Source of the DNA: Nigrospora sphaerica
Lineage: Eukaryota > Ascomycota > Sordariomycetes > Amphisphaeriales > Apiosporaceae
NCBI GenBank assembly: GCA_018287875.1
Contig: JAGVVL010000022.1
Span: forward strand, 2,666,001-2,730,000
DNA length: 64,000 nucleotides
Reading direction: 5' to 3'
The notes beneath the pieces were generated by a model that did not search any database, was not told the origin of the DNA, and saw only the letters and a program-made list of their open reading frames with translations. Both the position numbers and the translations under genes were made by a program. Positions 5,929-61,139 of the stretch are shown here, piece after piece. Within the stretch, counting starts at the first letter, position 1, and each line of letters opens with the position of its first letter.

Positions 5929-5964
5929 AGCCGGCTCGTTCTCGTGGTGTAGAGATTGAAGAAT

Positions 5965-34825: not shown

Positions 34826-35130
34826 AAGTTAGTGTCTAAGTAGTTGACAGTAACTGACCTGAGCATAAGTGATTAAAATATAATAAAGCGTTATACTTAA
34901 GTACTGCGTGATATAAGGTTTGTATAATTAGAGACAGAGAACATCTATTTAGCTTAAATACTGGTTGCTAGATAACTAAATAACTAAGGGTGCTTAACTA
35001 GATAACTAGTTTAAACTTTATAATAGATCGTTAGGAGGTTACTCTTATTTATAGGTGAGATAGATGCTTAGATTAATTATTAAGGTAATGACTGTCTATA
35101 TAGAAAATCCTTATAATACCTGATTGTTAG

Positions 35131-35494: not shown

Positions 35495-37843
35495 ATGCGT
35501 GCCAATCGTCATGAGCCTCGCGAAACCTTCCGTGAAGCGCCGCCCTCAGTAGTGGTGCCCCCATCTGCTGCTGATGAATGTGGAAGTTGTGATAATATGC
35601 CGGATGCTGCTGCTCCTTACGTTCAGCAAGATGCGTCGAGGGAAATCCAAGATTTGGTCAACCATTACCAGACACTCGGGCCGACAAGAAAGGCCTACAG
35701 TGAAAACACTGAGAAGTTGCTCTCCAGACAAAAGGATATATGGATCCAGTAAGTCCACGATCTGCGGCTTCGGTGCTTCGCTGACTCTGCTAGGTTTTGT
35801 CGATCATTCGGTGTTGAGCCCGACGAGACAATCAAACGCGCAGATGTAGCTGTCTTCAAGGCTTTTCTCGACTGGCGCGTAAGACATGGGAGGATCAACA
35901 AGCTTTCAACGATCAAGGGCTATTGGAAATCCCTCAGTCTCGTCTACGCGGCCACTACGAGTTGCTGGTTAGACCAGGCAACTCTCTACGATATAAATAA
36001 TGTGAGTTATCTGTTGTGTAGTGGCCGGACCTAAGTTTGATCTATCTGGCAGTTTTTGAGTCAAGACCTTCAAAAGAGGTACAACCTTAGTCTTGATGGG
36101 AAAGAGAAGTCGGCCCTTTTCGTGGAAGACCTGGATTTTCTCCTGACCCATCACTGGATGCGGGATACCGAAGTCTTCCCCCACGAGCGCATGCGACTAC
36201 AGCTGGCGATGATTCTGCTTTTGGCTGGTGCAACGTCCACCCGACCTGGGGCGCTGCTCAAGCTGAGGTACCGAGATATTAGCTTTGCTGTATTTCCCTC
36301 TCAAGATTATGGTTCTCGGAGCAGACTCACGATGACAATTCGCCTCACCGAGACGAAGACACGCGGTGGGAAGAAGACCCCTACAAAATTTGGATTCCGC
36401 GAGGAGATCAACTTGATTCATTGTCCCGTCCTTGGAATGCTGGCATTGACTCTGGCCGACGAGGCCTTGGAAGGCGAGCCCACATTGGAAACGATCCATC
36501 GACTGCGGGTGCCGGCAGACAAGGACCGTATCCGGCTCCCTATCAAAGAGGGTGTAATGGACTCCTTTATCTTCCGCAATGGGACAGGTTTGGGCGCCGA
36601 TGGAGACTCCTACGAATATGGCTCGGCCCGCAATGCCCTTGTCAGACTGGGGAAGTCGTGTGGTTATTTGAACGACTTGATGTTCTACGACCTGCGGCGC
36701 GCCACGGGGAAGAAGCTCACCAAGGAAGTATCGCCCGAAGAGCGTAATCAGATCATGGGCCACAGCGGGGGCACCTCGAGCGTGTACCGCCAATACTACA
36801 TGCCGGAATTTGTGGATCGCGACGTGCAGGCGATCTATTTCGGTAGCACGCGCCAAGACGATCTGATTCTGGCCATTGGAAGGATCCCGCGAAATGGACA
36901 AGCGCCCACAAAACTAACGGAAGATCAGAAAGACTCGGTACGCCAAGAACCAGAGCTCATAGTGGCTTCACAGGAGCGCGACAGGCTCAGGACCGAAATT
37001 CGTCGTTCATTTGGAACGATGAACCAAGCGCGAAAGGCAGCAACAAACCAGGCTCGGGGCTTGGTTAAAGCGCATGACCTCGCGAACAGTAAGGTGAACA
37101 GCATACGATCCAAACTCCAGAACGAGCTCCTTGGCCGGAAAATCAAGGAATTTCATGCCACTTCGGACCTTGAAGCAGTTCAGGGACAATTCGGCACTAC
37201 TTCCAGTTCCCAATTCCGCCCACAAGGCCAGAAGCCTTGGGCGGTACCCGACTTTGAGCTCACCGAGAGGCGCCGGGTGGCGGAGGTTCTTTCTTCCCAG
37301 TCGTCCGGGCTGGAAACGCTGGGCATTGCCGAGCTTGATGACCTACGGGTTGAGCTGGTCGTTGCTTTGACTGCCCTGTGTCGAATGAAAGAGACACCCT
37401 ACAAATTTCGCAAGAGAAGCCAGTCGACCTCCACGGGGAGCGAAGCAAAGAAGATACGACAATGCTCTGCGCCGGAGGAGATGCAGGGAATGCAATTGAA
37501 GTTCAGCGTCGCAAACGCAGCCGATAAGTCTTGCCCTTTCTGTAAGAGCGACCCCACCTGCGGGCCGCGGAAACGGGGGCACCAATTTGCACGAATCGAT
37601 GTTCTCGGGCGCCATATCTTCGAGCAGCACTTCGACCAGTCGGGCAAAGTTCGGGGGGCAATTAACACTGACAGTGGCAGAATAGCTTTTGGTTGTCCTT
37701 ATGTCGGCTGTTCCACACCACTGTTCAGTGCAAGGGATTTTGCCTGTCATGCGCATGGGTCTCACGGGATGAATCGGTTCCCAAGCTCTATGATTCCAGG
37801 AAATGTGATAAGCAGCTGGGCTGATCTTATCTCTCAACACTAG
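35495..37843 (+). CDS. DUF3435 tyrosine recombinase, Starship captain-like
   Basis: Proposed exons are 35495-35748, 35794-36001 and 36053-37843, giving about 750 aa. The first intron (GTAAGT...CTGAC...TAG) removes an in-frame TAA at 35750; the second is GTGAGT...CAG. The protein matches fungal DUF3435. A core arginine lies in STRPGALL (about R218), followed by YDLRRATG (about R369/R370), GHSGGTSS (about H391) and candidate nucleophiles in YRQYYM (Y399, Y402 or Y403). A long helical part follows, then a C2H2-like finger beginning CPFC (about C648) with a second Cys/His cluster (CPYVGC). Captains excise and insert whole Starships; other DUF3435 genes belong to Crypton-like elements. It is the first gene after the AT-rich island and points into the cargo-like region. 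The start ATG has a good CACA context. Confidence 0.85.
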
Positions 37844-38603: not shown

Positions 38604-41600
38604 TTAAACCCCGTAGTGAACATATGGAACCCAAAGCAACCTGTCCGAATCCTCTTCATCTAGTAACACGTCTCGTCCATCTTTTCGTTTATCCGTTCTA
38701 CAAGCTGCTCCCATCCCCTTCACCCACGCGTCTCGCATCTGCTGACTCGCCGAATGAAGCCCGTAGCTCACAGACTCATCGCTTAGTTTCTGCCGCCCCA
38801 GCACCTCATATGTCAATCGCGCCATCTCGACGCATAAAGCGTCATCCACACTCCACAGCGTGCCAATCACGTGCCGGAAGCCCGCCAGCTGGAACGCGCT
38901 GCTCAGATGAATACTCTCGTCCAGGGACCGGTTATCAAGGACCTGGCTCGTCCCGCAGGCCGACAGGTAGGCGAGGAAGGGTGGGTGGCGTTGCAAATTG
39001 GTCTCGAGGAGACTCTCCACTGTCAGAGGGTCGTCTTTCCAGTCGTCGAGGAGCAGGAAGCTCTGCAATGGCTGTGATGGATGCGTGCCTCCATGGCCAG
39101 CAAAGTGAAAGATCTTGCAGTCTTCCAGCGATAACTTCACGGCGCTCGTAATCTTCTCGGGTGTGACTGGAACAGCCTGGGGTGGACCATAATGTTTTCT
39201 GACGGCTTTAATCTCTTTTTCTGCATGGACGAGAGCACCCACGCCGGAGGTTGTTTCCATCGAGATGAGAACGAGGTTGCCACCCGTTCTCTCTGGCTGC
39301 TGCTGTCGACGCGTATGAATCATCGCTCGTAGGGATGTCGCATACGAGGATACGACACGATCGAGCGCTGTGCGGCCCTTCCTTTCTAGGTGGTATCCGG
39401 CGGCGTGTAAGGGAAAGCCGACGAGCGGTCCTGTCGGGATCCACCATATCCGTGGCCACTTCTGGCCGGATGGCGCACATGTAAGGTCCAGATGCTTGAG
39501 GACAGGATAAACGATTCCATCCCAGAGCCACTCTAGTATGGCAGACGAAGGCGACATGGCTTGACGGCGCTCCTGGATGGCCTGGTACGAGACATTCGGC
39601 AGTTCGATACACTGGATGCCCGTCTTTTGTACAATCAGTGCGTCGCAGCGATAGCGGCTCACATTGATCATCACAACCGGGCCGTGTGCCGCTGCCACTA
39701 AGATCTCACTTTCGGCTAGGGGAAGGAGGAAACGGTCAAAGCCGGGTCGTTTCCGAATCTCGACAGTCACCTCTTCAAGTCGCTTTTCGGCTTCTCGGCG
39801 CTGGTCGGTTTGTTGTTGCATAGCAGACACAGGGTCCTCCTGAGATGTTAGGCGACTAGATAGGGGCGGAGCGTCGAGGATGGCCCGCGACTCATCGAAG
39901 GTAGCCGCCAAGTCGGGATGCTCTCGGCGTAAATCAGATACATCTGTACGCAAATCTTGGAGAGCGCTGGCGAGAACGCCACGGCCCGTCTCTAGCCAGG
40001 CGATAGCCTTAGATGGCGGCTCTCGAGCTTCAAGTGCAATAGCTGCAGCATCCGATGCTAGACCCGCAGCTTGAAGAAGAAGGTGCTGTTTATCGGCGTT
40101 ATTAAGAGAACGCGGTGTTAGTAGGGGAAGCAGCTTAATTGCTAGTTCGGCGTGTTGTAAGACATTTTTCGGATGTAGGGGGCTGAATTGCGTTGAGAGC
40201 AGGTTGCTAACAGTAGGAATACGGACAGAAATAGGGGCCGTAGATTGATGAAAGGCGGAAACATAATAGTTGTAAGACATTTCGAGATCTGCTACAGCTC
40301 CAATCTTCCCGAATCGGCTATAGAGGAAGCTAGCGAGGTTGTTTAGGAACGTAGCACGGTCGGGGTGCTCGTCTGGTGTGGCATCGACAGCTTGGTGAGC
40401 TTTGGAGATAGCTTCCTCGAGATCGGCTATCGCCCCCATCCTCTTGAATCTGCCTGAGAGGTTGTGTCCAAGGTTGTTTAACCGGCTAGCACGGTCGGGG
40501 TGCTCGTCTGGTGTGGCATCGACGGCTTGGCGAGCTTTGGAGATGGCTTCCTCGAGATCGGCCATCGTCTTCGTCCTGTTGAATCTGTCCTGGAGGAAAC
40601 CAGCAAGGTTGCTTAGCATCCCAGCACGGTCGGGGTGGTCTTCTGGTGTGGCGTCGATAGCTTGACGGGCTGTGATGATAGCTTTTTCAAGATCAGCTAT
40701 CGCCCTCGTCCTGACGAATCTATACTGGAGGAAGCTAGCAAGGTTGCTTAGGTATTTAGCATGGTTGAGGTGGGTTTTTGGCGTGGTGTCGATAGCTTGG
40801 CGAGTCGTGATGATGGCCTCCTCGAGATCGGCTATCGCCCCCGTTCTGACGAATCGGCTTTGGAGGAAGGTAGCAAGGTTGTTTAGACGGCCAGCACGGT
40901 CAGGGTGGTCTTTTAGCGTGGCGTCGATAGCGTGGCGAGCCATAGTGATAGCCTCCTCGAGATCGGCTATCTCCCCCGTCCTAACGAATCGGTTCTGGAG
41001 GAAGGTGGCAAGGTTGTTTCGGTATGCAGCACGGTTAGGGTGGTCTTCTAGCGTAGCGTCGACAGCTTGGCGACCTGTAGCAATGGCATCCTCGAGATCG
41101 GCTATCGCCCCTGTACTGCCGAATCTGTTCTGGAGGAAGGTGGCAAGGCTGTTTAGGGTTGTAGCACGGTTAGGGTGGTCGTCTAGTGTGATATCGACAG
41201 CTTGGCGAGTTGTGGTGATGGCCTCCTCGAGATCGGCTATCGCCCCCGTCCTGCCGAATCGGTCCTGGAGGAAGGTAGCAAGGTTGTTTAGACGGCCAGC
41301 ACGGTCGGGATGGTCTTCTGGCGTGGCATCGACAGCTTGACGAGCTGTGGTGATGGCTTCCTCGAGATCGGTAACTGCCCCCGTCCTATCGAACCTGCTT
41401 GAGAGATTGTTTGCAAGGTTGTTTAGGTAGCCAGCACGGTCGTGATGGTCGTCTGGCGTGGCATCGACAGCTTGGCGAGCTATGGTGATGGCTTCTTCGA
41501 GATCGGCAACTGTCCCCGTCCTGTTAAATCGGCCACTAAGGAAGCTCGCAAGGTTGTTTAGACGGCCAGCACGGTCGGGATGGTCTTCTGGCGTGGCATC

Positions 41601-44345
41601 GACAGCTTGACGAGCGGTGGTGATAGCTTCCTCGAGATCGGCAACTGCCTCCGTCCGTCTAAACCTATTCCAGTGAGATATCCCGATCTCACTTAACCTT
41701 CTGGCACGGTTGTTGTCATCTTCGGACTTCGCACCGAGAGCTCGCTTTGATGAGCTGAATTGCTTGTCGAACTTGTTTAACGCAGCCATGTCGTGTGACG
41801 TGATGCTCGGTCGGGTCATCTTGAACGCCTTTGTGAAATGTTCGTCCTTAAGACGAACCTTCAGCGCGACGACCCTATCTGTCGCTTCTAGGTCTTGCTC
41901 TGCAGCCTATGCAAGCCCAGCCTGCCCGCACAAGCTCTTCAGGTCCGAGCCCGAAAAGCCCTCGGTAAGGGCGGCGAGATGGTCAATATCGACACCATCG
42001 AGGTCGTCTTCCTTAAGAAGGATCCGAAGAATGCTAGCGCGTGCCGGACCATCGGGGACCTCGAAGCGGATTCTATGAGGTAGCCGCCTTAAAAAGGCGC
42101 TGTCAAGATCCATGGGTCGATTAGTGGCCGCCAGGACAAAGGGGGCCTCGTCATCCTGTGCCAGTCCGTCCATGCTCTGCAAGAACTCGGTGATAGCCGT
42201 GCGTTGCCAGCTCCTGTCATCCTCGCGTCGGCGGTAGAAGAGGGCATCGACTTCGTCAATGAAAATAATGCATGGGAAGAGCTTCCTAGCCAGGGTGAAG
42301 GTCGCCTGAATGGCCTTCTCTGACCCTCCAACCCATTTGCTGTTGATAACGGCAGGATTGATGACCAGCATGTGCGAACCCATAGATTTGGCGACTGTTC
42401 TCACAAGGAGGGTCTTTCCTGTGCCTGGAGGCCCGTAGAGCAAGGCTCCTCTGATCCTGATTTGGGATAGCAGTGTTCTGGAAGCGGCCTCCGGCCTTAG
42501 CTTCGACAGCTGGACGAGGGTCTTGATACTTTTCATAACATCCTCGTCAAGAGCGACATCATCAAACTCCGAGTCGAGGGCAGCTGTTATCCGAGTTAGC
42601 AAGATCAGAACCCGATCCCCAACCCGACCAATTTGGATTGCTTAGGCAGAGTAGATCATAGAACAATACATACCAGGGTCGGCGAGGTTGTGGAGGATCT
42701 TTCTCTCATCTTCATTCGCTTTTTCTCTGATGCCACGCAACACCGCCTCCCGTGCCTCCTTTGCCCTCTCGGCCTCTTTTTCCCTTTCCTCTTCCCCATT
42801 TTCCACCTTATCTGCTTCTTCCTTCTTTGTCTCCTCAGTCGCTTCTTCCTCTTCCGTTGTTCCGGACGCTTCGGTTTCTTCAGTCACTTCTTCCTCTTCG
42901 GTCGCTTCGGATGCTCCGGACACTCCGGAGTCTTCGGTATTTAGTTTCTCCTGATCCCCTTCTTGTTCCAGCACCAACCGGCGGAGAATTGACCGGATCG
43001 CATCTATCTCCACCTTTTGTCTTCTGGCGCACCTGCCAACAATGCGAGTATACGCAGTGCTGATCTTCTCTTCGTTATAAACGGAGAAGAGCTGGCCTGT
43101 CACCTCTTCGGGGAGCAGAGAGACCCAGTCGCAGGAGGGTGCCAGTAGGCCTGGTGGAAACGATGGATATTGCGACAGTTGAGCATGCAGCCGGCGTTGG
43201 AGCGACTGTGTTCGCATTCGTGTAATCGAGCCCTGCGAACATGCCCCCTTATCCTCCAGCCAATCTCTTGGAACGTTGAAAGGCATCAGCTCCGTGAACA
43301 GCTCGCTTGTTGCAGTGCCGAGCTTCTCTGCAAGTTTGTCCATTGTGGGACGCCACCATCCGCACATCATACAGCCACACTCGGTGAATTTCCAAGGAGA
43401 ATCAGGATCGAGCTCGCCCACTCCTTCTTCCACCTCTGTGTGGGCTACGCCGATGACCAGTATGATTCTCTCGCCATCTCGCCTACGCCGATTCACTGCG
43501 TCCCGTATCCGGCAGATGATTCGGCGACCTTTGATCGAGTCGGAAGTGAGGATACGCAGGCCATCACGAAGGTAGAGAATCGCTGGTAAGGGCTGCGGTT
43601 CTCGGACGCTCGGCAGAGTCGGAGTCGTAGCCTCGGTAGCTGTATCCACCAGCTGCTGGTCCGTCGCATCCTGAGACTTGCTCTTGGCAGCATCCAAGAT
43701 GGCAAAAACAGCGTCGCGCACTCGCTTCGTCTCTGCGTCATCCGCTTTTCTCTCTGCGCCCGCTTCGAAGTAGCGCTTCAGGAGCGTCTGAGTAGGCTCT
43801 GGACTACGTGTCATCTCATTATCGCCTATGTTCAAGGTTAGACGACCTTCCCTCGCAGCGGCACGTTCTTGGTTGTAGAACTCGACAGCCATGTCCTCCA
43901 TCTCGTAAATATGAAGGGGTATAAGCAAACAGTGAATTTCTTGAGCCATGAGAACAACCAGATCGTCCAAAAAGGCCAGACCATGTCGTATCTTGCTGTG
44001 GAGCATGATGCTGCATTTTCGGTCAGGCACTTGGTGCTGAGGGTTCCGCAGCTGGAGTGAGGCTGCTGCATCCAATAGGTCGTCAACCGTCTCGCGGCTC
44101 ACGGAGAAGCAATCGCCTTGATGTTCGTTGGCCTCTCTAGGAGAGGCACTCTCCTTTGGCGTAGTCTTAGCTTTAGCTGTCTTCCTCGTGTCCGTTCCGG
44201 TGTCGTCGATAAGACGGATCTTGGGCCGGACCAACTTGAGTTCATCGAACATCTTGACGTTGTCGACGAACCACTGCGGAGCGGCGAAGTGAAATGAAGA
44301 TGCCTTGGAGGCACCTTCGCCTGTATCGGTGCGTTGGGCGACCAT
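38604..44345 (-). pseudogene. AAA+ ATPase / TPR / CHAT protease giant gene, copy A
   Basis: Exons 44345-42674 and 42583-38604 are joined by a 90-nt intron (GTATGT...GCTAAC...CAG), about 1883 codons. Order: an N-terminal region resembling the degenerate first half of fungal tandem Msp1-like AAA proteins, an acidic Glu/Thr-rich linker, an Msp1/spastin-class AAA domain (Walker A GPPGTGKT, Walker B FIDEVDALF), ten 45-residue TPR-like repeats, then a CHAT domain with its catalytic pair in FAGHGG (about H1721) and LSACGT (about C1767). CHAT is a caspase-related protease fold. One stop interrupts it: TAG at 41909-41907, where copy B has Trp (codon 783). It is a TGG-to-TAG, RIP-type change. A separate TPR-CHAT product from the ATG at 41819 is conceivable. 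A possible extra 5' exon lies at 44614-44485. It could be a pseudogene or a recently silenced allele. Confidence 0.82.
40290..41639 (-). repeat. Coding TPR array of copy A: ten 135-bp units
   Basis: Each unit encodes 45 residues of the pattern DLEEAIxxARQAVDATP...HPDRAxxLxNLAxxLxxRFxRTGxxA, two helices typical of fungal TPR_10/12 repeats. Units here differ noticeably from each other, unlike the homogeneous array of copy B. A further degenerate unit leads into the CHAT domain. The opposite strand stays open over this array only because of its periodicity. Confidence 0.88.
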
Positions 44346-45155
44346 GCTCTCTGTGGCGTCTTCGAATCTGTGCGTGAACTATCACGATAGTAGGTTCGAG
44401 TGCTTCTGCGAGATGTTTTGTTCCTCCTTGGTCTGTCTAAGCTGTCCGCTGTTAAGTATTTGCCTCGACGTTCACTTGGCTCACCTGCAGCTTTGGCGGC
44501 TATGGAAGGAACCCTAAGGAAAGAAGCCAGTGCTAAGAAAGCGTCCGCATTTAGACCTGCCGGCGTGGCTGGTGCCCATGTATGCTGCAGTGCAGAGGCT
44601 GTAGCTCCAGCCAATAAACACTGATCTTAGTTATTCACCCACGCTCCTCTACTCACCTTGTCCCCAAATACAGCTCTTTGCTGCCTTAAACTCATCAGCT
44701 AGTATATCACTTGGAACCAATATATGCGATCTGAACAACAAGGGTAAACTTTGCGACTTGGCATATCCACTCACACTTTCTAATTCCCACTTATAGCTAC
44801 GCGTGCGTTTAGCACTAATGCATCACTACACTGCACCACCAAAACTCCATGTTTCTAATGGACCTATAGGCAAGGTCGGAGCCATCTCCGGTCAATCGCG
44901 TAGGGTCAATAGATAAAAGTGCCTTATTGGCTGAATTACGTGGCATGGTGTAGGGTGTGCCTGAGGCCACCAAGCTAAGAACAGGACGTCTAGACCCACG
45001 TAACTGCCCGACCTTCTTGCCCAACGCTGCTGGCTGCTTACCCTTTGTTCAGGCAACCTTGACTTATCTCTCTTGACTTTACCTGCCCCTGGCACCTTCG
45101 TTCACGAGCCCTTGTCTACACCGGGTCTTAATCTCCAAGAGAAATCTTAGCAACA
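44346..45155. promoter_or_regulatory. Divergent intergenic region between CHAT copy A and the gasdermin-like gene
   Basis: The two genes are head to head with about 810 bp between start codons. A possible upstream exon of copy A begins at ATG 44614 and ends with GCAG/GTGAGC at 44485/44484, leaving about 540 bp as a shared promoter. The 120 bp before 45156 are pyrimidine-rich and end CAACA before the ATG, a good fungal start context. No specific operator could be identified. Confidence 0.45.
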
Positions 45156-46093
45156 ATGCCCGATGCGTTGCGTGTGGATAAGGCCTTCGCCCAGCTTTTG
45201 CGCCACCATGCCTACGGCTGGGCGCTTTTCAAAAAAGTGACAGCGGCTGACATGCACCCTGGTTCGTGCGGCTATTTCGACGCGGAAGGCGACTGGCAAA
45301 CCCTGGTCGATCTGACGCGTCCCCCGAACGACTTGCTCCTCGACGGCTGGAAGGCACCCAGCACCCAAATCCATCCACACGAAGCCCCCGAGTCGCTAGT
45401 GTGGTATCCCAAGACCTCTGGGGCGGTTAAAACAAACCAATTAGGTGGCACGGTCGGGATAACGTACGTCCCCCTCCGCATCGTGTGGTCGCGCAGCTCA
45501 TGGTGACCCTGGCTAGTACGGTTGTTGCCCCGGCCGAGGCATCCGTTACCTCGTCCTTTGAGAGTGCGACCGACCAAAGTGCAGTGCTAGCAACAGAGAA
45601 CCCCGTACGGCGATACCGAGTCGGTGACGAGGCGGCTGCGCTGCAATGGATGACCGACAATGCTCCGGTGATGCTGCAGCGTCATAAGGCTGTCGTAAAG
45701 CGGCATGGGGTATGGATCATCACGAAGACCTATACCTCTCGCCGGTGCGCCGTCGCCTTGATGAGCGGCAAGTCGTCTGCCGTCGCGATTGGCTTAGGTG
45801 TCAGCGTGCCGGGTCTCGTGACCTTGACGCCGACCAGCTCCTGGACAAGGGTCCGAGGTGATTGCAGCACCGAGATGCATGAAGACGAAGAAGGGGTCGT
45901 TGTCTTCATGAGTGGGATCTACTTTCGGGGTCAACTTCTGAGCTCGAAGTTAAAGTCTGCGCGGGACCAATCCGAGCAGAAGGACAGGATCTTTCGTGGT
46001 GGCTTCGTAGAGTCGGACGACGAGGCCTACTCGGGCGATGAGCTCGAGCTCGAGCTGGAAATGCAAAATTCCGACGTACAGAACTTTGAGTAG
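45156..46093 (+). CDS. Probable fungal gasdermin-like pore-forming protein (RCD-1/HET-Q1 type)
   Basis: Two exons, 45156-45463 and 45517-46093, joined by a 53-nt intron (GTACGT...CTAG), give 294 residues. Without the intron the gene looks frameshifted. Family-like features are the N-terminal HAYGWALFK and HPGSCGYFDAEGDW, a central EASVTSSFESATDQSAVL block, then HGVWIITKTYTSRRCA, SSWT and GVVVFMSGIYF, followed by a charged, acidic tail of about 45 residues. Length and pattern resemble fungal gasdermin-like proteins (RCD-1, HET-Q1), which form plasma-membrane pores and kill the cell after proteolytic release of a short C-terminal part. Neighbours support this: it lies between two CHAT-protease genes and is convergent with a C14 caspase-like gene, and fungal and bacterial gasdermins are often encoded beside proteases. 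Family assignment is by pattern memory, not a search. An uncharacterised fungal family is the alternative. Confidence 0.6.
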
Positions 46094-46570
46094 CTTTCAT
46101 AAATACACGGCTAGCGATTCCGTATGTGCCCTGGGTGGTGCTAGCGGATGGTATGCTATGGGTAGATACTATGGAATCTGGGCTTGGAGCCGCGGAACTC
46201 GTTTAGGATACCCGCTGCCCGCGACAAAGCAAAGGACAGATTAAGCTTATCTACCTAGCGCCAGGCGGGAAGCGAGCGATCCGGTTGTACGTACTACAAA
46301 GCTTACAGGGCTAACACCATGGTACGGAACTACGTTCTGCCAAGCCTCCAGGCCCTAATGTGCCGTGTAGCTGGTTGACGACAAGCCCCGGCGCTAGCGA
46401 TTCTCGGCCTCAACATAACGGATTTCGTGCGATCTGCTAAAGCCTTGGTCGTGAACACCAGGCCAGGCCGCCCTGCCATGCCTACCATATCGCATTGGCC
46501 GAAACGTCTAACTATAGAATATCTGTGGCTCTTAGTCCATAAGAACATCTCCCCAGATGTCTGATTACTC
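46094..46570. terminator. Convergent 3' region between the gasdermin-like and C14 genes
   Basis: The plus-strand gasdermin-like gene and the minus-strand C14 gene end facing each other, separated by 477 bp. This should contain both polyadenylation regions. No additional frame is credible. Confidence 0.45.
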
Positions 46571-48502
46571 TCATTGTGTGTAGATCTTGATATCTTCAAT
46601 CCACCAGGCAAAGTCGCCAGACTCCGAGTTCATGACCGTATGTCTTCCAGAACTTCGTGGCTTGCCATAGTTCATCAGATCTGCGTCCCAAATGTCCGGT
46701 AGCTCCATGCTCTTGAGCGAAAGTGGCTCGCCTCGTGTGACTACGGTGCGTAGAAGATCGCGATGAGGGCCTTCCTGACGAACGTGTCCCTCACGGAGCT
46801 CGCGCGGCACTGTGAGCGTAAAGCGGAACGAGCGGGTTGCGCCGGGCGACATTCTTTGTGGCGTGTCCTGTACCGGGAACATCTGCTCAATATGGAAGCC
46901 AGGCCCGAGGTCAAGAACGGTAAAGTAAAGATCGCAGTCGCCATCATTTTTGAAAGTGTATCGCACGGAGTGGCCGTCGGCGAAGGGGGTTTCGGGGCTG
47001 CTTGTCGAGTCGAGTGTCACCCTGAACATTGGGGTGTCCTCGGTAATCTCGTCACGAAGGCTGTGGACTTGCGCGAATCGGAACAGATGTGCTAGAGCAT
47101 CCGCCGCTCTGTTCGCTTCCTGGTCGCTGTCCTGGCCTTGGTATGGAATGCAATGCGCAGGTCCTTCATATCCTGCGAGGGCAGGGGCAAGAATGTCAAT
47201 CCTGTCGTCGGCTCCTTTCCGAAGTTGAAATCGAATGGCTCCGGAATGTCCATCTCTCGCCACCTCGACGTCCTCTATGACACTGACACGGCTCGCAATC
47301 CGCTCCTGTAGACGATCCTGGAGAATTGCTTGGAACTCGCCTTTCAGAATCGTGTCGACAAGGACCTCGAAAGTCTTCTCGGAGTACCACTTCCATGGGA
47401 CGAACTCTGCCATGGCGCTATTGAAGGCCTCACTCAAGGAACCCTTACTCTCGAATTCATCCACATTCTCGATGGTGAGAAGAACATCCGACGTGGTCCA
47501 ACGGCTGATGAACACCATACCCTTCGTGACGCCATGGGCCTTGCCAATTGGGAGCACCGCATTCTGTCCGTCCACATTGACTTGGACAGAGGCCGCCACG
47601 AACGTCTCGCGGGTCTCGAGAAAGGCGAGTCGGTCTCGTCCAAACACCTGTGGTGTCTGCGACCGCGTGATTTTTCCCCGTATGTGGTCGCAGATGGACC
47701 GGTACGTAGGCTGGGCCTCCACACCCCGTGACGTGAGGTATCGGCACAGCGTGTGTGTGAACACGCCGTACTTCTTCTCGTCCAGAACCATCTCAAGGGC
47801 CACCTGATCTCTCAAGCAAGCGGCCATCAGGACGAAGCCTTCAGGGTTGATGTCCCATGACTTTTCAAGAGTCCCGTGGCGACCATCAGGCAAAGCCGTT
47901 AGGAAGTCGTCCACGGCCTCGTCACTGTGGAGGTTGGGTGGCGGTATCCAATCTGCAGGACTTCGAGGAGTGCCGTCATCGCGCCACGCGCCTCCGGAGA
48001 AGCAGCTATCCAAGCTAACGACAACGTGAACACCCTTTTCATGGAACCTCCGCAGGAGGTTGTTCAGCTGCCACCCTCGTATTGCTGGCTCGCTGCAGCA
48101 ATAGTCCATGGGAAGGAGAGATGGATCCTTTCTTCGCCCGTCGACAGGCGATTGGTTGATCGGGTTAAGCAGCGCGCCGTGTCCCGAGTAGTGGAAAAAG
48201 AAGAGGTCTCCATCGCGTGCGCCTTCTAGCAGACGATCGAATTCAGCTCGGATGTTGCCAGATGTAGGAAGGTTGCCTTCTTGGTGAAGAGTGGGAGGAG
48301 CCGCCGTAGAGGACAAGGATGTAGGAGATATGAGGCGGATTGAATCCTGGAATCCAAACCGCTGGAGAAGGTCGGCCACGATCGCCACATCGTTGGCGCA
48401 GCCCTGGAGACTGTTGAGCCGCACCGGTGTGCCCTGGGTGTTTGTTCTAGGACCATCAAGGTAGTCATCGATTCCGATAAGCAGGGCGAACTTTCTTGCC
48501 AT
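46571..48502 (-). CDS. Caspase-like C14 peptidase with C-terminal extension
   Basis: A single exon of 643 codons, intact. The first 300 residues form a C14 caspase/metacaspase domain: it starts ARKFALLIGIDDY, with the catalytic His in HYSGHG (H108) and the catalytic Cys in SLDSCFSGG (C167). Such enzymes cleave proteins after basic or acidic residues and act in regulated death or proteostasis. The remaining 340 residues are unlike classical fungal metacaspases, which have a Pro/Gln-rich N-terminus and a short C-terminus. They include a beta-rich part (RYTFKNDGDCDLYFTVLDL...GPGFHIEQMFP) similar in style to the DUF4384-like domains that accompany bacterial caspase-like proteins. It is convergent with the gasdermin-like gene and head to head with CHAT copy B, so it may act in the same pathway. 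The start is the first ATG after an in-frame stop-free 5' end. Confidence 0.85.
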   Translation of the reverse strand: MARKFALLIGIDDYLDGPRTNTQGTPVRLNSLQGCANDVAIVADLLQRFGFQDSIRLISPTSLSSTAAPPTLHQEGNLPTSGNIRAEFDRLLEGARDGDLFFFHYSGHGALLNPINQSPVDGRRKDPSLLPMDYCCSEPAIRGWQLNNLLRRFHEKGVHVVVSLDSCFSGGAWRDDGTPRSPADWIPPPNLHSDEAVDDFLTALPDGRHGTLEKSWDINPEGFVLMAACLRDQVALEMVLDEKKYGVFTHTLCRYLTSRGVEAQPTYRSICDHIRGKITRSQTPQVFGRDRLAFLETRETFVAASVQVNVDGQNAVLPIGKAHGVTKGMVFISRWTTSDVLLTIENVDEFESKGSLSEAFNSAMAEFVPWKWYSEKTFEVLVDTILKGEFQAILQDRLQERIASRVSVIEDVEVARDGHSGAIRFQLRKGADDRIDILAPALAGYEGPAHCIPYQGQDSDQEANRAADALAHLFRFAQVHSLRDEITEDTPMFRVTLDSTSSPETPFADGHSVRYTFKNDGDCDLYFTVLDLGPGFHIEQMFPVQDTPQRMSPGATRSFRFTLTVPRELREGHVRQEGPHRDLLRTVVTRGEPLSLKSMELPDIWDADLMNYGKPRSSGRHTVMNSESGDFAWWIEDIKIYTQ

Positions 48503-49829
48503 GATGAACGGTTGCTTGAATGAATAGCAGTTGGTGTATGCTTCTCGAGTGATGTGTGAATGCGAGACCTCCAGGTGTTAGGAAGAGCTTGAATCGAATT
48601 ATTCTCCAGCTACCAAATGCAAAGACAACTGTGTCACACCCTGCCTTGCCTCCAGTGCCACCTCCAGTTCGTAGAACCCTATCCTACACGTATTAATCTA
48701 CGAGAGCAGCCGATACGTCTCCGCCGGAGGGTCTTCCGGCCAATCATAAGGGCTGTATAGGTGCCTGCTTACCAGTATCCTCTACTAAGATGCTCGTAAT
48801 GCACAGCCTGCAAAGTATACCTTTTAGAAAACAAGCGCTGGGATGGATCACTCCGGGACCCCGAAACTTGGGCAAGAAACAGGCATCGTACTAGGCCTAA
48901 TAGAGAAATATCTTCTGCGGTTGCAACCGCTCGGCTTGAGGATGCCGAAGAATACATAGCCGAGACGCAACTCCCCACAAAGCTATTTCTAAGCCAATTA
49001 AAGTAGCTGCATAGGCGCTGGTTTGTCATAACATCCTTGTCTTAGGAAGAAATGCACAAATCGCAAAACATACCTTTTTGACCTGAGCTCGACAATGGGA
49101 CCATGGGAGGGATACGTTCATCGACTTCAAGGCTCCTATCTCCGACCCCTCCCTCTCGTTGGCCTGCACTCATCTGCAGCTATATGGAGCCATTCAGCTA
49201 GCTTCGCAAGGCACGTCACAAAGGGTCCGTTATGGAGCGACCACCTGGCTGTATCTCGTCCTCTCGTTCCAACACTTCCTGCCTTGGATGCTATATCAGT
49301 CACCTGACTTCACTCAAAAGCACCTATGAGAACTCGCTATCATTTGCTAAACTGTTGTATAATCTTAGGTATCACCAACGCGAGGAATGATGTAGAGTGA
49401 TTAGAAATGCTGCGAGAGCCACTATGCTGATGGTATTTTCGCGCTACGCACCTTGCTCAGCCACTCTTCATACGAACCGTTTCGTAAATCATGTTCAGGG
49501 CATCAAGAGCTCCTACGGGGGGAACTTGTTATCCAATGTGTGTCTTATTGTAGAGTCTGCCATGTGCATAAGTAAATGCATGCTCAGAGACAATAAGTAA
49601 TATGGCTGCGTTGACGCATCGGATATCACGGCTGTTCACTCATTCGCTGTTGGGTAGCCATGCTTGCTGCAGTTAAGGCAGGGTTCCCGCATGTAATTGG
49701 TCTCCAAGGGTACACCCGATGGGTTGCCCTGTGGATCGATTGGCAACATGAATGGCCAGCGGAACTCTTAGTAACAGCAGCCGCTAAGTACTCTTAAAAT
49801 CTGACGTATGGCTTCGTAACCTGACGAAT
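48503..49829. promoter_or_regulatory. Divergent intergenic region between the C14 gene and CHAT copy B
   Basis: About 1.3 kb with only short random frames and no recognised gene or repeat. It separates two head-to-head genes and must hold both promoters. The homologous arm shared with copy A begins near 49830, so this core side is not duplicated. Confidence 0.45.
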
Positions 49830-51609
49830 CAGATGAACTCTGGTATTGGCAGTGGAAAAGATGCGAAAAGATATAGCGTACGTGGGCACGACCCCCACCG
49901 GCTCAGGTCCGAACGCGAATGCATTCTTGGCGCTGGCTTCGTGCCCTGGGGGCCATCAAAGCTGCAGGTGAGCCAAAAGAACGTCGATGCAAATACTGGA
50001 CAGTGGGCAGCTTGGACAGGCCTACGAGGAACAAAGCATCTCACAGAAGCACTCGAACCTACCATCCCAATAGTACACGCACAGATTCGAAGACGCCATA
50101 GAGAGTATGGTCGCCCAACGCACCGATACAGGCGGAGGTGCCTCCAAGGCATCTTCATTTCACTTCGCCGCTCCGCAGTGGTTCGTTGACAACGTCAGGA
50201 CATTTGATGAACTTAAGTTGTACCGACCCAAGATCCATCTCGTTGACGAGACTGGAACGGATAAGAGGAAGACAAACGGAGCCAAAACCACGCCAAAGGA
50301 GAGTACATCTCCTCGAGATACCAACGAACACCAAGGCGATTGCTTCTCTGTAAGCCGCGAGACGGTTAACGACCTACTGGATACGGCAGCCTCGCTGCAG
50401 CTGCGAAACCCTCAGCACCAAGTGCCTGACCGAAAATGCAGCATCATTCTCCGCAGCAAGATGCGGCATGGTCTGTCCTTCATAGACGATGTCGTTGTTC
50501 TCATAGCTCAAGAACTCCACTGTTTGCTTATATCTCTTCACCTTTACGAGATGGAGGACATGGCTATCGAGTTCTATAACCAAGAACGTGCCGCTGCGAG
50601 GGAAGGTCGTCTAAATTTAAGCATAGATGACGACGAGATGGCACGCAGTCCGGAGCCTACCCAGACGCTCCTGCAACACTACTTCGAAACTGGCGCAGAG
50701 AGGAATGCGGATGACGTAGAGACGAAGCGAGTGCGCGACGCTGTTTTTGCCATCTTGGATGTTGCCAATAGTAAGTCTCAGGATGCAACCGATCAGCAGC
50801 TGGTGGATACAGCTTCCGAGGCCACGATTCCGACTCTGCCGAGGGTCCGAGAACTACAGCCCTTACCAGCGATTCTCTATATTCGTGACGGCCTGCGTAT
50901 CTTCACTTCCGACTCGATCGAAGGCCACCGAATCATCTGCCGGATACGGGACGCAGTAAATCAGCGCAGGCGAGCTGGCGAGAACATCATACTCGTCATC
51001 GGCATGGCCCATACGGAAGCAGAAGAAGAAGCGGCCAAGCCCGATCTTGACACCTCTTGGAAATTCACAAAGTGCGGCTGCACGATGTGTGAATGCAAGC
51101 ATACCGATGGCATATGCACTCGGTCTTGGTGTGCCATGGGCAAACTTACAAAGAAGCTCGGCACCACAACAAACGGGTTCTTCACAGAGCTGATGCCGCT
51201 CAGAGTTCCAAGTTGGGCGGAGGCGAGAGAGGCATGTTGGCAGGGCTCGGTCACAGACATTCGGATCCAGTCTTTCAAACGCAGGCTGCATGCCCAGCTG
51301 TCGCAATACCCATCATCCCCAGCGGGCCTCCTGGAACCCTCATGCAATTGGATCTCCTTACTCCCCGAAGAGGCGACGAGCCAGCTCTTCTCCGTATATG
51401 ACGAAGAAAAGATCCGCACTGCGCACACTCGCATTGTCGGCAGGTGCACCAGAAGACGGAGGGTGGAGATGGCTGAGATCCAGTCGATTCTCCTTCGGTT
51501 TGTGCCGGAACAAGAAAAGGAGGAGGAAAATCAAGAGACCGAGGCTTCCAAAGCGTCAGGAGCGCCCGAAACATACGAAGCGGTCGAAGCGACTGAAGCG
51601 TCCGGAACG

Positions 51610-51717
51610 ACTAAAGAGACGAAGAAGGAAGAAGTGACTGAAGAGACGAAGAAGGAAGAAGTGACTGAAGAGACGAAGAAGGAAGAAGTGACTGAAGAGA
51701 CGAAGAAGGAAGAAGCA
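51610..51717 (+). repeat. 27-bp coding tandem repeat in the acidic linker
   Basis: Four units of about 27 bp encoding (V)TEETKKEE in copy B; copy A has about one comparable unit at its equivalent position. It lies between the N-terminal region and the AAA core and probably forms a flexible or coiled, highly charged spacer. Confidence 0.75.
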
Positions 51718-52890
51718 GATAAGGTGGAAGACGTGGAAGAGGAAAGGGCAAAAGAAGCCGAAAGGGAAAAGGAAGCACGGGAGGCGATGCTACGTGGCGT
51801 CAGAGAACAAGTGAATGAAGATGAGGAAAAGATTCTTCATAACCTTGTCGACCCTGGTATGTATTGTTCTGTGATCTACTCCGCCCAAGCACTCCGCATT
51901 AGCTAGACTGAAAATCGGATTCTGAATCCGCTAACTTGTTTAACAGCTGCCCTCGACTCAGAGTTTGATGATGTGGTTCTTGACCAGGATGTCTTGAAAA
52001 GTATCAAGACCCTCGTCTAGCTGTCAAAGTTAAGACCGGAGGCCGCTTCCAGAGCACTGCTATCCCAAATCAGAATCAGGGGAGCCTTGCTCTACGGGCC
52101 TCCAGGCACGGGAAAGACTCTCCTTGCAAGAGCCATCGCAAAAACCACTGGCTCACATATGCTAGCCATCAATCCTGCCGTTATCAACAGTAAATGGGTT
52201 GGAAGGTTAGAGAAGGCCATTCGGGCGACCTTCACCCTGGCTAGGAAGCTCTTCCCATGCATCGTTTTCATTGACGAGGTCGACGCCCTTTTCTACCGCC
52301 GGCGAGAGGATGACCGGAGCTGGCAGCGCACGGCTATCACCGAGTTCTTGCAGAGCATGGACGGACTGGCACAGGATGACAAGGCCCCCTTTGTCCTGGC
52401 GGCCACCAATCGACCCATAGATCTCGACAGTGCCTTTTTAAGGCGACTACCTCATAGAATCCGCTTCGAGGTCCCCGATAGTCCGGCACGCGCTAGCATT
52501 CTCCGCATCTTCCTCAAGGACGACGACCTCGATAGGGTTGATATTGACCGTCTCGCAGCCCTTACCGAGGGCTTCTCGGGCTCGGACCTGAAGAGCTTAT
52601 GTGGGCAGGCAGGGCTTGCATGGGCTGCAGAGCAAGACCTGGAGGCGACATATGGGGTCATCGCACTGAAGGTTCGTCTTAGAAACGAACACTTCACGAA
52701 GGCGTTCAAAATGACCCGACCGAGTATCACATCACACGACGTGGCTGCGCTAAACAAATTCGATAAGCAATTCAGCTCATCGAAACAAGCTTTCGGTGCG
52801 ATGTCTAAGGATGGTACTGACCGTGCTCAACGGTTAAACGATATCGGGCTATCTCATTGGAATGAATTCAGGCGGACGGGGGCAGTTACT

Positions 52891-54780
52891 AATCTCGAAG
52901 AAGCCATCACCACAGCTCGCCAAGCTGTCGATGCCACGCCAGAAGACCATCCCGACCGTGCTGCAATACTAAGCAATCTTGCTTGTTTCCTCCAGGACCG
53001 ATTCGGCAGGACGGGGGCAGTTACTAATCTCGAAGAAGCCATCACCACAGCTCGCCAAGCTGTCGATGCCACGCCAGAAGACCATCCCAACCGTGCTACG
53101 ATCCTAAACAACCTTGCAAACAATCTCTCGAGCAGGTTCGACAGGACGGGGGAAGTTGCCGATCTCGAAGAAGCCATCACCACAGCTCGTCAAGCTGTCG
53201 ATGCCACGCCAGACGACCATCCCGCCCGTGCTGGCCGGCTAAACAACCTTGCAAGCAAGCTCTCGAGCAGGTTCAACAGGACGGGGGCAGCTGCCGATAT
53301 TGAAGAAGCCATCACCACAGCTCGCCAAGCTGTCGATGCCACGCCAGAAGATCATCCCGACCGTGCTAGCTGGCTAAACAACCTTGCAAACAATCTCTCG
53401 AGCAGGTTCGACAGGACGGGGGAAGTTGCCGATCTCGAAGAAGCCATCACCACAGCTCGTCAAGCTGTCGATGCCACGCCAGAAGATCATCCCGACCGTG
53501 CTAGCTGGCTAAACAACCTTGCAAATAATCTCTCGAGCAGGTTCGACAGGACGGGTGAAGTTGCCGATCTCGAAGAAGCCATCACCACAGCTCGTCAAGC
53601 TGTCGATGCCACGCCAGACGACTATCCCGCCCGTGCTGGCCGGCTAAACAACCTTGCAAGCAAGCTCTCGAGCAGGTTCAACAGGACGGGGGCAGCTGCC
53701 GATGTTGAAGAAGCCATCACCACAGCTCGCCAAGCTGTCGATGCCACGCCAGAAGACCATCCCGACCGTGCTGGCCGGCTAAACAACCTGGCTAGATTCC
53801 TCCGGGACCGATTTGGCAGGACGGGGACAGTTGCCGACCTCGAAGAAGCCATCACCACAGCTCGTCAAGCCGTCGATGCCACGCCAGAAGATCATCCCGA
53901 CCGTGCTGGCCGGCTAAACAACCTTGCTAGATTCCTCCAGGGCCGATTTGGCAGGACGGGGACAGTTGCCGATCTCGAAGAAGCCATCACCATAGCTCGT
54001 CAAGCTGTCGATGCCACGCCAGAAGACCATCCCGACCGTGCTGGAATGCTAAATAATCTTGCTAGATTCCTCCAGTGCCTATTCGGCAGGACGGGGACAG
54101 TTGCCGACCTCGAAGAAGCCATCACCACAGCTCGTCAAGCTGTCGATGCCACACCAGAAGACCATCCCGACCGTGCTGGCTGGCTAAACAATCTTACTAG
54201 ATTTCTCCAGGACCGATTCGGCAGGACGGGGGCAGTTGCTGATCTCGAAGAAGCCATCATCACAGCTCGCATAGCTGTTGATACCACGCCAGAAGACCAT
54301 CCCAACCGTGCTGCTATCCTAAACAACCTAGCTGGCTTCCTCCAGGACAGATTTAGCAGGACGGGGGCAGTTCCCGACCTCGAAGAAGCCATCACCACAG
54401 CTCGTCAAGCTGTCGATGCCACGCCAGAAGACCATCCCGACCGTGCTGGAATGCTAAACAACCTGGCTGGCTTCCTCCAGGACCGATTTGGCAGGACGGG
54501 GGCAGTTACCGACCTCGAAGAAGCCATCACCACAGCTCGCAAAGCTGTTGATGCCACGCCAGAAGACCATCTCGACCGTGCTGCTATCCTAAACAACCTG
54601 GCTGGCTGCCTCCAGGACCGATTCGACAGGACGGGGGAAGTTGCCGATCTCGAAGAAGCCATCACCACAGCTCGTCAAGCTGTCGATGCCACGCCAGACG
54701 ACCATCCCGCCCGTGCTGGCTGGCTAAACAACCTTGCAAACAAGCTCTCGAGCAGGTTCGATAGGACGGGGGCAGTTACC
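52891..54780 (+). repeat. Coding TPR array of copy B: fourteen 135-bp units
   Basis: Fourteen consecutive 135-bp units, 45 residues each, with the same consensus as in copy A but far more alike. Units 4 and 5 are almost identical, and units 3 and 6 are near-copies of one another, which points to recent unit duplication or conversion. Differences concentrate at a few positions: the two residues after DRA (GR, GM, GW, SW, AI, TI) and the helix-B positions (FLQD, NLSS, KLSS, FLRD). That pattern fits a recognition surface. Confidence 0.9.
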
Positions 54781-56466
54781 GATCTCGAAACCTCCTACCG
54801 CTACTATGTTTCCGCCTTTCATCAATCCACGGCCCCTATTTCTGTCCGTATTACCACTGCTAGCACACTGATCTCAACTCGATTCGGCTCCCTAAACCCG
54901 AAAAACGTCCTACAACACGCCAAATTAGCAATTGAGCTACTTCCTCTGCTTACACCGCGTTCTCTCAATAATGCTGATAAGCAGAACCTCCTTCTTAAAG
55001 CCGCGGGCATAGCATCGAACGCGGCTGCTATTGCACTTAGCGCTCAAAAACCGCTATACACCGCTATCGCCTGGCTAGAGACGGGTCGTGGCGTTCTCGC
55101 TAGCGCTCTCCAAGATTTGCGCACAGATGTGTCTGAACTGCGCCGAGAGCATCCCGACCTGGCGGCTGCTTTCGATGAGTCGCGGGCCATCCTCGACGCT
55201 CCGTTCCAACCCAGCCGCCTGGCATCTGACAAGGACCCAGTGTCGGCTATGCGACAAGAAACTGACCAGCGTCGGGCAGCCGAAAAGCGACTTGAAGAGG
55301 TGATTACCGAGATTCGGAAACAACCCGGCTTTGGCCGCTTCCTCTTACCCCCGGCCGAAAGCGAGATTTTAGTGGCCGCGGCACACGGCCCGGTTGTGAT
55401 GATCAATGTGAGCCGCCATCGCTGCGACGCATTGGTTGTACAAAAGACGGGTATCCAGTGTATCGAACTGCCGAATGTCTCGTACCAGGCTATCCAGGAG
55501 CGCCGTCAAGCCGTGTCGTCTTCGCCTGCCATACTGGAGTGGCTCTGGGATGAGATCGTCTATCCTGTCCTCGAGCGTCTAGGATTTACGTGTACGCCAT
55601 CCGGCCAAAGGTGGCCACGGGTATGGTGGGTCCCGACAGGACCGCTTGTCGGCTTTCCCTTGCATGCCGCCGGATATCACCTAGAAAGGAAGGGCCGCAC
55701 AGCGCTCGATCGTGTCGTATCCTCGTATGCGACATCCCTACGAGTGATGATTCATACGCGTCGACAGCAGCAGCCAGAGCGAACGGGTGGCAACCTCGTT
55801 CTCATCTCGATGGAGACAACCTCCGGAGTGGGTGCTCTCGTCCATGCAGACAAGGAGGTCCAAACTGTGGGAGGATATTGCGATTTAATCCAGGTCAATC
55901 CAATCACTCCCGAGAAGATTAAGAGTGCCGTGAAGTCATCGCTGGAAGATTGCGAGATCTTCCACTTTGCTGGCCATGGAGGCACGCATCCGTCGCAGCC
56001 ATTACAAAGCCGGTTATTCCTTGACGACTGGAAAGACGACCCCTTGACAGTGGAGAGTCTCCTCGAGACCAATTTGCAACGCCACCCGCCCTTTCTCGCC
56101 TATCTCTCAGCCTGCGGGACGAGCCAGATCATTGACGACCGGTCTAGAGATGAGAGCATCCATCTGAGCAGCGCATTCCAGCTGGCGGGCTTCCGGCACG
56201 TGATCGGCACGCTGTGGAGTGTGGACGATGCTTTGTGCGTCGAAATGGCGCAATTGACGTATACGGTGCTCGGACAGCAGGGGCTCAGCGATGAGTCCGT
56301 AAGCTACGGGCTTCATTCGGCGAGCCGACAGGTGCGAGATGACTGGGTGGGGGGATTGCAAAAGGATTTTGGGGCGGGTGAACGAAAAGATGGACGGCAT
56401 TTGTTAGTGGATGAAGGGGATTCTGACAGGTTGCTTTGGGTCCCGTACGTTCACTACGGAGTCTGA

Positions 56467-59369: not shown

Positions 59370-60473
59370 TCACCACATACCAGGAGCCGTTCTTGCGACG
59401 CTCTGTTTGTTACCATTCACTTTATCCGCCTTTTTCAACAGGTCGTTGAGAATTTCGTTAGCAGCATTCGCATGTCTAACTGCGGCTAGTGGTATCTGCA
59501 ATAACAGTTCTTTCGTGTACGCTGCTGCTGTAGCAGCCGCATACGGCTGCCAAGTCTCGTTCTTGTGCGAGTCGGCATAGTTGCTGATTCCACGGATGAC
59601 GAGACAGGGAAACGTCTCCATGAGGCCTGCTGCTTCAATATCCACGCACAGGATGTGCATGCTGTCCCGTAGTTCATCTCGCTTCTTTGCGGACTTGATA
59701 ATCATGTTAGATGACCCGATTGTTCCATAATGCACCCGGGGGTGTGGACTTTTTCGTTGACTGCGCTTGACCGTCTCCGAGAACTCGCAATTCTTGCAAT
59801 TCTTGCCGCCAACGTGGGTATAGTCGGCTGGGAAGAGACAGTCCCGCTCTACGCCAGGGTAACAATAGTCGTCTGCCATAGCAGGGTACCGGGCAACCAT
59901 CTCCTCGAGATGCTGTTTGACACTGTTGCCACGAAGTCCGTGCAAGGCCTTCAGCAGAGCGACATTGCTGGCGAGCACATGCGGTGGCTTGTTCAAATGC
60001 CCTGTCCTCACGAAGCCCCCAATTGCGCTCTTGCCACGGTCGAACTGCACGATGCCACCCAAATCCTCTTGAGCTTCGCTGACAACGACATCGCCCAGGC
60101 GAATGTCATGCAGATCGTCGTCTTCGTAGTTTTCGTCGGGGACCCCGCCACCAGTCCCCACTAGCAAGCCGAAGCGTATCCGACCGAAATCGTTCAGCAG
60201 CTGTGTTACCACCATCGCGGCGGCGTTGTTGCCAGTCGTCGGCATCGCAGCTACGACAACGTTGTGCTGACCTATCTGGCCCAACTCATAGGCATTCTGG
60301 TCGCGACTCGTGCTGAGACCCAGGTGCTTCCTGTCAAGCAAAGCGAGCACGGGGGTCAGCTCGTACCCCATAGGACATATGATCGCGACAGTGTAATCGT
60401 CATGCTGTAGGCAGATAGGCGGCTCTGGATTTGGCGCGATCGGACAAGATTCGTGCACTGCGTCCTTCGACAT
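59370..60473 (-). CDS. Stand-alone PNP_UDP (nucleoside phosphorylase-like) domain protein
   Basis: The ATG at 60473 gives about 367 residues in a single exon. Motifs of the fungal PNP_UDP_1 class are the first strand AIICPMGYELTPV, the phosphate-loop-like GTGGGVPDE, a CxxC segment (KNCKNCEF), HYGTIGSSN and the C-terminal substrate region CVDIEAAGLMETFP followed by IRGISNYADSH. In fungi this domain is the N-terminal module of many NLR-like receptors, and related domains in bacterial defence cleave nucleosides or nucleotides. Here the protein stops about 40 residues after the domain, with no NACHT/NB-ARC or repeats. It is either a single-domain effector or the surviving N-terminus of an NLR. 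Key motifs look intact. Confidence 0.82.
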   Translation of the reverse strand: MSKDAVHESCPIAPNPEPPICLQHDDYTVAIICPMGYELTPVLALLDRKHLGLSTSRDQNAYELGQIGQHNVVVAAMPTTGNNAAAMVVTQLLNDFGRIRFGLLVGTGGGVPDENYEDDDLHDIRLGDVVVSEAQEDLGGIVQFDRGKSAIGGFVRTGHLNKPPHVLASNVALLKALHGLRGNSVKQHLEEMVARYPAMADDYCYPGVERDCLFPADYTHVGGKNCKNCEFSETVKRSQRKSPHPRVHYGTIGSSNMIIKSAKKRDELRDSMHILCVDIEAAGLMETFPCLVIRGISNYADSHKNETWQPYAAATAAAYTKELLLQIPLAAVRHANAANEILNDLLKKADKVNGNKQSVARTAPGMW

Positions 60474-61139
60474 GGGAAATGAGGTCCAGAAGGCCAATGG
60501 GTGTAGCGATGATACTTCGGGACACTACACCAAATTACTTCCGAGTATTGAAACGAGATGTTGGAGAGGTCAAGGTTCCATGCGACCCCGCTCGTCTCCA
60601 GCCTGGAAGGTGCTAAAGAAGAGGCCGCTCCTCATATGTTTGACTAGCGGATCAATCTATCTCCGGAGCTGCCATCTGTAAGGGCGTGATCGACTAGGTG
60701 TTGAATCCACAGTTGCATCCACGCTGGTGGCCAACCCACGCTCTGCCTGGCGCCACACCCGAGGCGTTACGGTACTTCACTACGCGCTACACTATAAGTA
60801 GCTAGCGGTGCCAGTACTGCAGTACAAGGCTCTCTACTTCACGTACCGCGCCGTCGCACTTGCGAACCTTCACGGGTCGCGGCAATGTGCTAAAGATCGC
60901 TGCTATCTAGGGTATAGGCTGGTTGTTTCAGCCAGGCAATTTTGAACCCGCCGAATTGAGATTTTCTTTTAGGGCTCAATTAACCTGGAAGCAGCGCCGC
61001 AAGCAGTTCGTCCGCTAGTTACGCGCATCCTGTTGAAGGCTCATGCAGGTGTGATGGAGCAGGGGTCTCCTCCACAGGTTATCCATCCTGGCGCCGTGCT
61101 AGCCGCTATAAAGCACGTTGAAATGCTCCTACAAGGGAC
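60474..61139. other. Intergenic, nothing recognised
   Basis: Contains the promoter of the PNP_UDP-type gene and unassigned sequence leading into transposase fragments. No credible gene. Confidence 0.4.

Follow-up and report, generated by a model that had tools for sequence, protein, structure and literature searches.

We analyzed a 64,000-nucleotide stretch of the Nigrospora sphaerica genome (hereafter the window; C13:2666001-2730000 of genome G000, 51.6 Mb in 33 contigs), in which a gasdermin-like gene and a C14 protease gene are enclosed by two inverted genes encoding AAA-TPR-CHAT proteins. We consider that these genes probably constitute a regulated cell-death module carried as the cargo of a Starship-like mobile element, in which the C14 protease would cut the gasdermin-like protein and the TPR-CHAT proteins would serve as sensors. 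The gasdermin fold, the conserved catalytic residues, the gene linkage in other genomes and the boundaries of the insertion were all computed. The window is fungal, and protein searches placed its closest relatives in Sordariomycetes (e.g., Neopestalotiopsis, Apiospora and Colletotrichum).

Four genes are confirmed at 38604-56466, far beyond chance, in the order of sensor (minus), gasdermin-like (plus), C14 (minus) and sensor (plus). They make up two divergent pairs, with the starts of the left sensor and gasdermin-like genes 810 bp apart and those of the C14 and right sensor genes 1604 bp apart. A CHAT gene lies less than 10 kb from the gasdermin-like gene, the spacing that characterizes a fungal gasdermin-CHAT cluster. 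The first-pass annotation of this DNA described a locus of about 18 kb with two giant inverted CHAT genes. The genes are located there and the AAA-TPR-CHAT paralogs are indeed inverted, but neither is a single open gene in this assembly, as each bears an in-frame stop, and the larger mobile element surrounding the locus, starting at 35112, had escaped notice. The features of the locus are as follows.

42674-44345, minus: left AAA-TPR-CHAT exon 1, for an N-terminal domain that matches no Pfam family (Pfam, gene model, unfused paralogs on contigs C9 and C5)
42584-42673, minus: left AAA-TPR-CHAT intron, 90 nt
38604-42583, minus: left AAA-TPR-CHAT exon 2, with AAA, TPR array and CHAT (Pfam, gene model)
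41907-41909, minus: in-frame stop at the AAA lid of the left copy (no stop at the matching position of the right copy)
40323-41656, minus: left TPR array of 135-bp units (nine full 45-aa units, 10 anchors)
45156-45463, plus: gasdermin-like exon 1
45464-45516, plus: gasdermin-like intron, 53 nt (GTACGT...GCTAG)
45517-46093, plus: gasdermin-like exon 2 (AlphaFold2 model, PDB matches)
45995-45997, plus: codon of Arg263, proposed P1 residue of a putative activating cut (IFR/GG; invariant in 18 of 18 aligned proteins)
46571-48502, minus: C14 metacaspase-like protease of 643 aa whose C-terminal region is beta-rich (PF00656, conserved dyad, model)
50107-51856, plus: right AAA-TPR-CHAT exon 1 (gene model)
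51857-51946, plus: right AAA-TPR-CHAT intron, 90 nt
51947-56466, plus: right AAA-TPR-CHAT exon 2 (Pfam, gene model)
52018-52020, plus: in-frame stop of the right copy, 5' of Walker A (left copy open at the matching position)
52866-54789, plus: right TPR array of 135-bp units (13 full 45-aa units, 14 anchors)

Gasdermin-like protein, C14 protease and AAA-TPR-CHAT proteins

After removal of the 53-nt intron, the gasdermin-like gene (45156-46093) encodes a protein of 294 aa, and full-length homologs align across the splice. Many other in-frame GT/GC-AG pairs in this gene were dropped in favor of the one chosen, which has a GTACGT donor and, alone among the splices tried, leaves the alignment with the homologs ungapped at that place. 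No Pfam family was detected in the protein, none was common to two or more of the 18 family members, and the profile of the family retrieved a single non-gasdermin match from the PDB sequences (E = 0.46). Known gasdermin families were not matched by sequence in Pfam or among the PDB sequences, a comparison that took in neither HET-Q1 nor the fungal gasdermins listed in the literature. When the AlphaFold2 model was subjected to a structure search, all of the nine PDB matches at E ≤ 0.001 were gasdermins with the pore-domain fold, and a viral structure library yielded no match at the same threshold. The protein is thus predicted to adopt a gasdermin-like fold, and the identity claimed in the first-pass annotation, for which a model lacking this fold would have been fatal, was supported. 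Arg263 and an acidic tail, the latter disordered in the model, are present in all of the 18 aligned proteins. Elsewhere in the genome, a gasdermin fragment with a stop was found on contig C5.

The C14 protein carries PF00656 (E = 5.3e-22), and metacaspase structures ranked first in the structure search with its model. The His108/Cys167 dyad is intact, both residues being present in 54 of 54 homologs. D38 and D165, which by analogy with MCA2 may line an acidic S1 pocket for putative cleavage after Arg or Lys, are conserved in the same 54. With CHAT and C14 both recognized by Pfam, the two protease types proposed for the locus are indeed there. A 1060-aa metagenome protein (P0164) bears TPR_10 and C14 in one chain, which may be a TPR-C14 fusion or a merger of gene models.

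Both sensor copies possess AAA (PF00004), AAA_lid_3, TPR_10 and CHAT (PF12770), while exon 1 matched no Pfam family. The two proteins are 80% identical over 1878 aligned codons, and the His and Cys of CHAT are present in both, although each gene has one in-frame stop. The two copies contain 10 to 14 TPR units, with a DNA identity between units of 85% on average (99% at maximum) in the right copy and 77% (88%) in the left. High internal repeat likeness combined with a changing number of units has been described for fungal receptors (PMC10197012), and the TPR arrays in the window display this pattern.

The ratio of nonsynonymous to synonymous substitution rates (dN/dS) between the two copies is 0.27 overall, 0.15 for AAA and 0.25 for the CHAT part. 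We thus regard the copies as having diverged under purifying selection. Taken with the single stop in each, the low dN/dS suggests that both were long constrained and hit later, so that the sensors may be decaying. Because a stop interrupts each copy, the circuit in this genome is probably impaired or being lost, and may be idle in this strain. Introns that would remove either stop were rejected, as the residues around both stops are kept in the other copy, and those around the right stop also in the paralog on C5. Repeat-induced point mutation (RIP) was not supported as the cause of the divergence, since only 92 of the 472 transitions (against 154 transversions) lie in CpA/TpG context. RIP indices are not RIP-like at 36-64 kb of the window but are at 6-34 kb. 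A CHAT fragment with a stop is found on contig C7.

In the left copy, the TPR-CHAT part alone makes an open frame of 1071 aa from an ATG at 41819, the size of the unfused relatives. C9 and C5 each carry a relative of the N-terminal and AAA parts that lacks TPR and CHAT. With such unfused paralogs at hand, the sensor genes look as though a gene for a stand-alone AAA protein had been joined to one for a TPR-CHAT protein. None of the 120 CHAT matches listed (of 3178) bore PF00004 or a GPPGxGK[ST] motif. Neither NB-ARC nor NACHT was found by Pfam, the best domain being the classical AAA with AAA_lid_3. The sensor is accordingly not classified as a NOD-like receptor (NLR) but perhaps works like a NOD module. 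The relative on C9 occupies 229855-232122, and a neighboring frame (L022:1265-2710) appears HET-domain-like by eye only.

Linkage in other genomes and the Starship-like element

Linkage was judged by locus tags and equal-sized contigs across three protein searches for gasdermin, C14 and CHAT homologs, the last represented by the 120 matches listed; the counts below refer to the matches listed. A C14 homolog is within two locus tags of a TPR-CHAT homolog in six of the eight comparable genomes. The tags are consecutive in Monosporascus CRB-9-2, two strains of Apiospora arundinis, Colletotrichum musicola and Hypoxylon texense, and one gene intervenes in C. camelliae. The two homologs are not close in Xylaria arbuscula or Fusarium nematophilum, nor is the second C14 homolog of Monosporascus close to CHAT. 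At least 13 contigs harbor both CHAT and C14 homologs. Furthermore, gasdermin and C14 homologs share equal-sized contigs in all of the three species on both lists, namely Trichoderma compactum (62.6 kb), C. somersetense (52.3 kb) and Apiospora marii (701 kb). A chance figure for the linkage, which assumes 20 CHAT genes in 12,000 and independence of the two A. arundinis strains, is not used as evidence. Altogether, we regard the gene set as recurring in other genomes, and the survey of related genomes, which could have spoken against the module, did not do so.

The module starts 760 bp from the frame of a DUF3435 tyrosine recombinase, the captain, which is the first gene of the element and points inward as in Starships. 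The features of the element and its left flank are as follows.

34000-35111, plus: left flank, dispersed AT-rich repeat that the element breaks at 35111 (the match with many genomic copies ends at about 35111-35116)
35112-64000, plus: window part of the Starship-like element, which runs on to G000:C13:2756684 (55,573 bp in total)
36041-37843, plus: captain, with a 600-aa open frame that reads toward the module (PF11917, E = 1.2e-63; the 5' exon or exons would lie upstream of the frame)
59370-60524, minus: PNP_UDP_1 domain protein, cargo (PF01048, E = 2.6e-11)

Three copies of the repeat retrieved from the genome continue past the break point with shared sequence, and this continuation was found at C13:2756685-2757015 on the same strand, 55.6 kb downstream. 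When the two flanks were joined, they could be aligned across the joint to the three uninterrupted copies, at 78.7 to 81.8% over 499 to 522 columns. Within the 55,573 bp, no match to either half of the repeat was found, the second half starting at the right border. The split repeat and the empty-site alignment mark a discrete insertion with both borders known. A second captain copy resides on contig C16 (86% over 431 aa), and the sequence shared with it starts at 35110. We thus regard the module, on these sequence borders, as cargo of a Starship-like element 55.6 kb long. This suggests that a complete self-destruct circuit is able to travel as a single unit. The cargo further includes a dispersed repeat near 61.9-63.2 kb, a giant non-ribosomal peptide synthetase (NRPS) frame of about 6.7 thousand codons (C13:2730546-2750702; condensation, AMP-binding and PP-binding domains) and, after it, a 1435-aa ABC transporter frame (L056:3-4307). 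Fungal NLRs, too, use the PNP_UDP_1 domain as an effector.

Proposed mechanism and alternative explanations

We infer cleavage, the order of the cascade, its trigger and cell death as follows. The effector would be a short gasdermin of microbial type, in which a pore domain (approximately residues 1-250) precedes the acidic tail, and C14 would cleave after Arg263, remove the tail and free the pore former. The sensors would be the TPR-CHAT proteins, which at this locus follow an AAA+ ATPase in one chain: a ligand bound to the fast-evolving TPR array may induce AAA assembly and switch on CHAT, which in turn may activate C14 or cut the gasdermin in parallel. The complete version, a three-tier pyroptosis-like cascade (AAA+-TPR-CHAT to C14 to gasdermin at Arg263) travelling between fungi as Starship cargo, is put forward tentatively, as a possibility rather than an expectation. 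The composite death or allorecognition module envisaged in the first-pass annotation agrees with the gasdermin fold, the two protease types and the recurrence of the gene set; a role in allorecognition is conjectural.

Several results weigh against the module as we propose it. A stop interrupts both sensor copies, each at a different site. The structural model of the gasdermin-like protein is middling (mean pLDDT, the predicted local distance difference test score, of 69.6; 69.6 to 44.6 across the five models), and its matches had TM-scores of 0.44 or below with high Foldseek root-mean-square deviations. Among the matches listed, no other genome had adjacent homologs of gasdermin and CHAT: they are on contigs of equal size but 69 tags apart in Neopestalotiopsis 37M, on contigs of different size in Ilyonectria robusta, and merely on a same-sized 2.3-Mb contig in Trichoderma camerunense. 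The linkage was read from locus tags and equal contig sizes, not from contig sequences. Finally, no clean target-site duplication was found, the best common stretch near the ends being 6 bp and not at both borders.

The CHAT protease could instead do the cutting. In Podospora, a TPR-bearing CHAT protease activates the neighboring gasdermin, and CHAT resembles separase and caspases (PMC12881547). As the CHAT dyad is intact in both sensor copies, the locus may be a two-component system of this published kind, with C14 as an accessory that trims the tail, serves in an autophagy-like clean-up or forms a second branch. We find this possible but less than likely: the repeated position of C14 beside TPR-CHAT and its sharing of contigs with gasdermin would be unexpected of an accessory without a role, and the conserved Arg-Gly site suits the S1 pocket of a metacaspase. 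The stop in each sensor copy raises another doubtful, albeit serious, explanation, namely a dead relic in which both sensors are pseudogenes and the locus is inactive in this strain. The remnants on C7 and C5 fit such decay. On the other hand, no stop breaks the gasdermin-like and C14 frames, which retain every key residue, the dN/dS between the sensor copies is low, their differences show no RIP bias, and the TPR-CHAT part of the left copy is open at the size of unfused relatives.

The remaining two explanations seem improbable to us. Solo DUF3435 genes are common (PMC12134995) and neither a clear direct repeat nor an inverted terminal repeat was found at the element ends, so the captain might be solo, the module part of ordinary host DNA and the insertion a pile of separate events. 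Yet one repeat is split at one point with its halves on the same strand, the joined flanks match three intact copies, the homology to the C16 captain starts at the same base, and the captain is the first gene and points inward. The cargo directly behind the captain could also serve the element itself, as a selfish device for retention or spore killing, instead of serving the host in immunity or allorecognition. Starships are known to carry spore-killer genes (PMC12134995). However, homologous gene sets occur in many genomes, which were examined without regard to elements, and no antidote-like gene was recognized.

Relation to described systems

The first-pass annotation knew of no described system of this composition. 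This claim was too broad, as fungal clusters of gasdermin and CHAT protease genes have been described (PMC10197012, PMC12881547) and one TPR-CHAT/gasdermin pair works in Podospora (PMC12881547). Like these two-gene clusters (HET-Q1/HET-Q2 type and Podospora TPR-CHAT type; PMC10197012, PMC12881547), the window encodes a short gasdermin that ends in a small tail, less than 10 kb from TPR-CHAT. In contrast to them, it has a second, metacaspase-like protease in between, a CHAT sensor that occurs in two inverted copies, each fused to an AAA+ ATPase, and a Starship setting. Nor did the sequence of its gasdermin match RCD-1 in the PDB. In Aspergillus fumigatus hetB, a large CHAT protein is likewise tied to fungal cell death, but that is an idiomorphic het locus for which the available text names no gasdermin partner (PMC11138114). 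Gasdermin, nucleotide-binding protein and proteases in one locus are also seen in bacterial inflammasome-like operons, such as the CARD-NLR operon of Lysobacter enzymogenes (PMC9612521, PMC13236601). The window has AAA (PF00004), CHAT and C14. The Lysobacter operon reportedly has other proteases and a CARD domain.

Compared with the metacaspases Arabidopsis MC9, MC4 and yeast Yca1, the C14 protein has about 340 extra C-terminal residues and is paired in the genome with gasdermin and TPR-CHAT. The element resembles Starships in its inward first captain, cargo, insertion into another transposon and size within 15-700 kb, and differs from known ones in a cargo of the gasdermin/C14/CHAT module, NRPS and ABC transporter. 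In a literature search covering few subscription papers, no report was found of a gasdermin with AAA, TPR and CHAT, none joined Starship, captain and gasdermin, and the available texts on fungal gasdermin, metacaspase and CHAT did not contain this gene set. Thus, gasdermin-CHAT pairs and Starships are known, whereas, within the literature searched, three features look new: a metacaspase that joins the pair, the fusion to AAA and the location in a Starship.

Receptor-effector clusters have been proposed to be kept together because they move by transposition (PMC9815663); the locus offers a concrete case, extended from NLRs to a gasdermin module. It places an AAA+ ATPase where fungal receptors usually carry NB-ARC or NACHT. 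The targets of fungal metacaspase-type proteases in cell death are an old open question, for which the locus names a candidate substrate and residue. If correct, the proposal would supply the first direct substrate of such a protease for cell death in fungi, and would mean that a giant transposon has dispersed a death circuit.

The surroundings of the insertion (6001-36000 of the window) are AT-rich (26-43% G+C) with RIP-type dinucleotide indices. Farther from the module, Ty3/gypsy-like retrotransposon frames (RVT_1, RNase H; about 62% G+C) occupy 728-6274 on the minus strand, and broken pieces of a Tc1/pogo-type transposase (HTH_psq, HTH_Tnp_Tc5) lie at 29245-30294.
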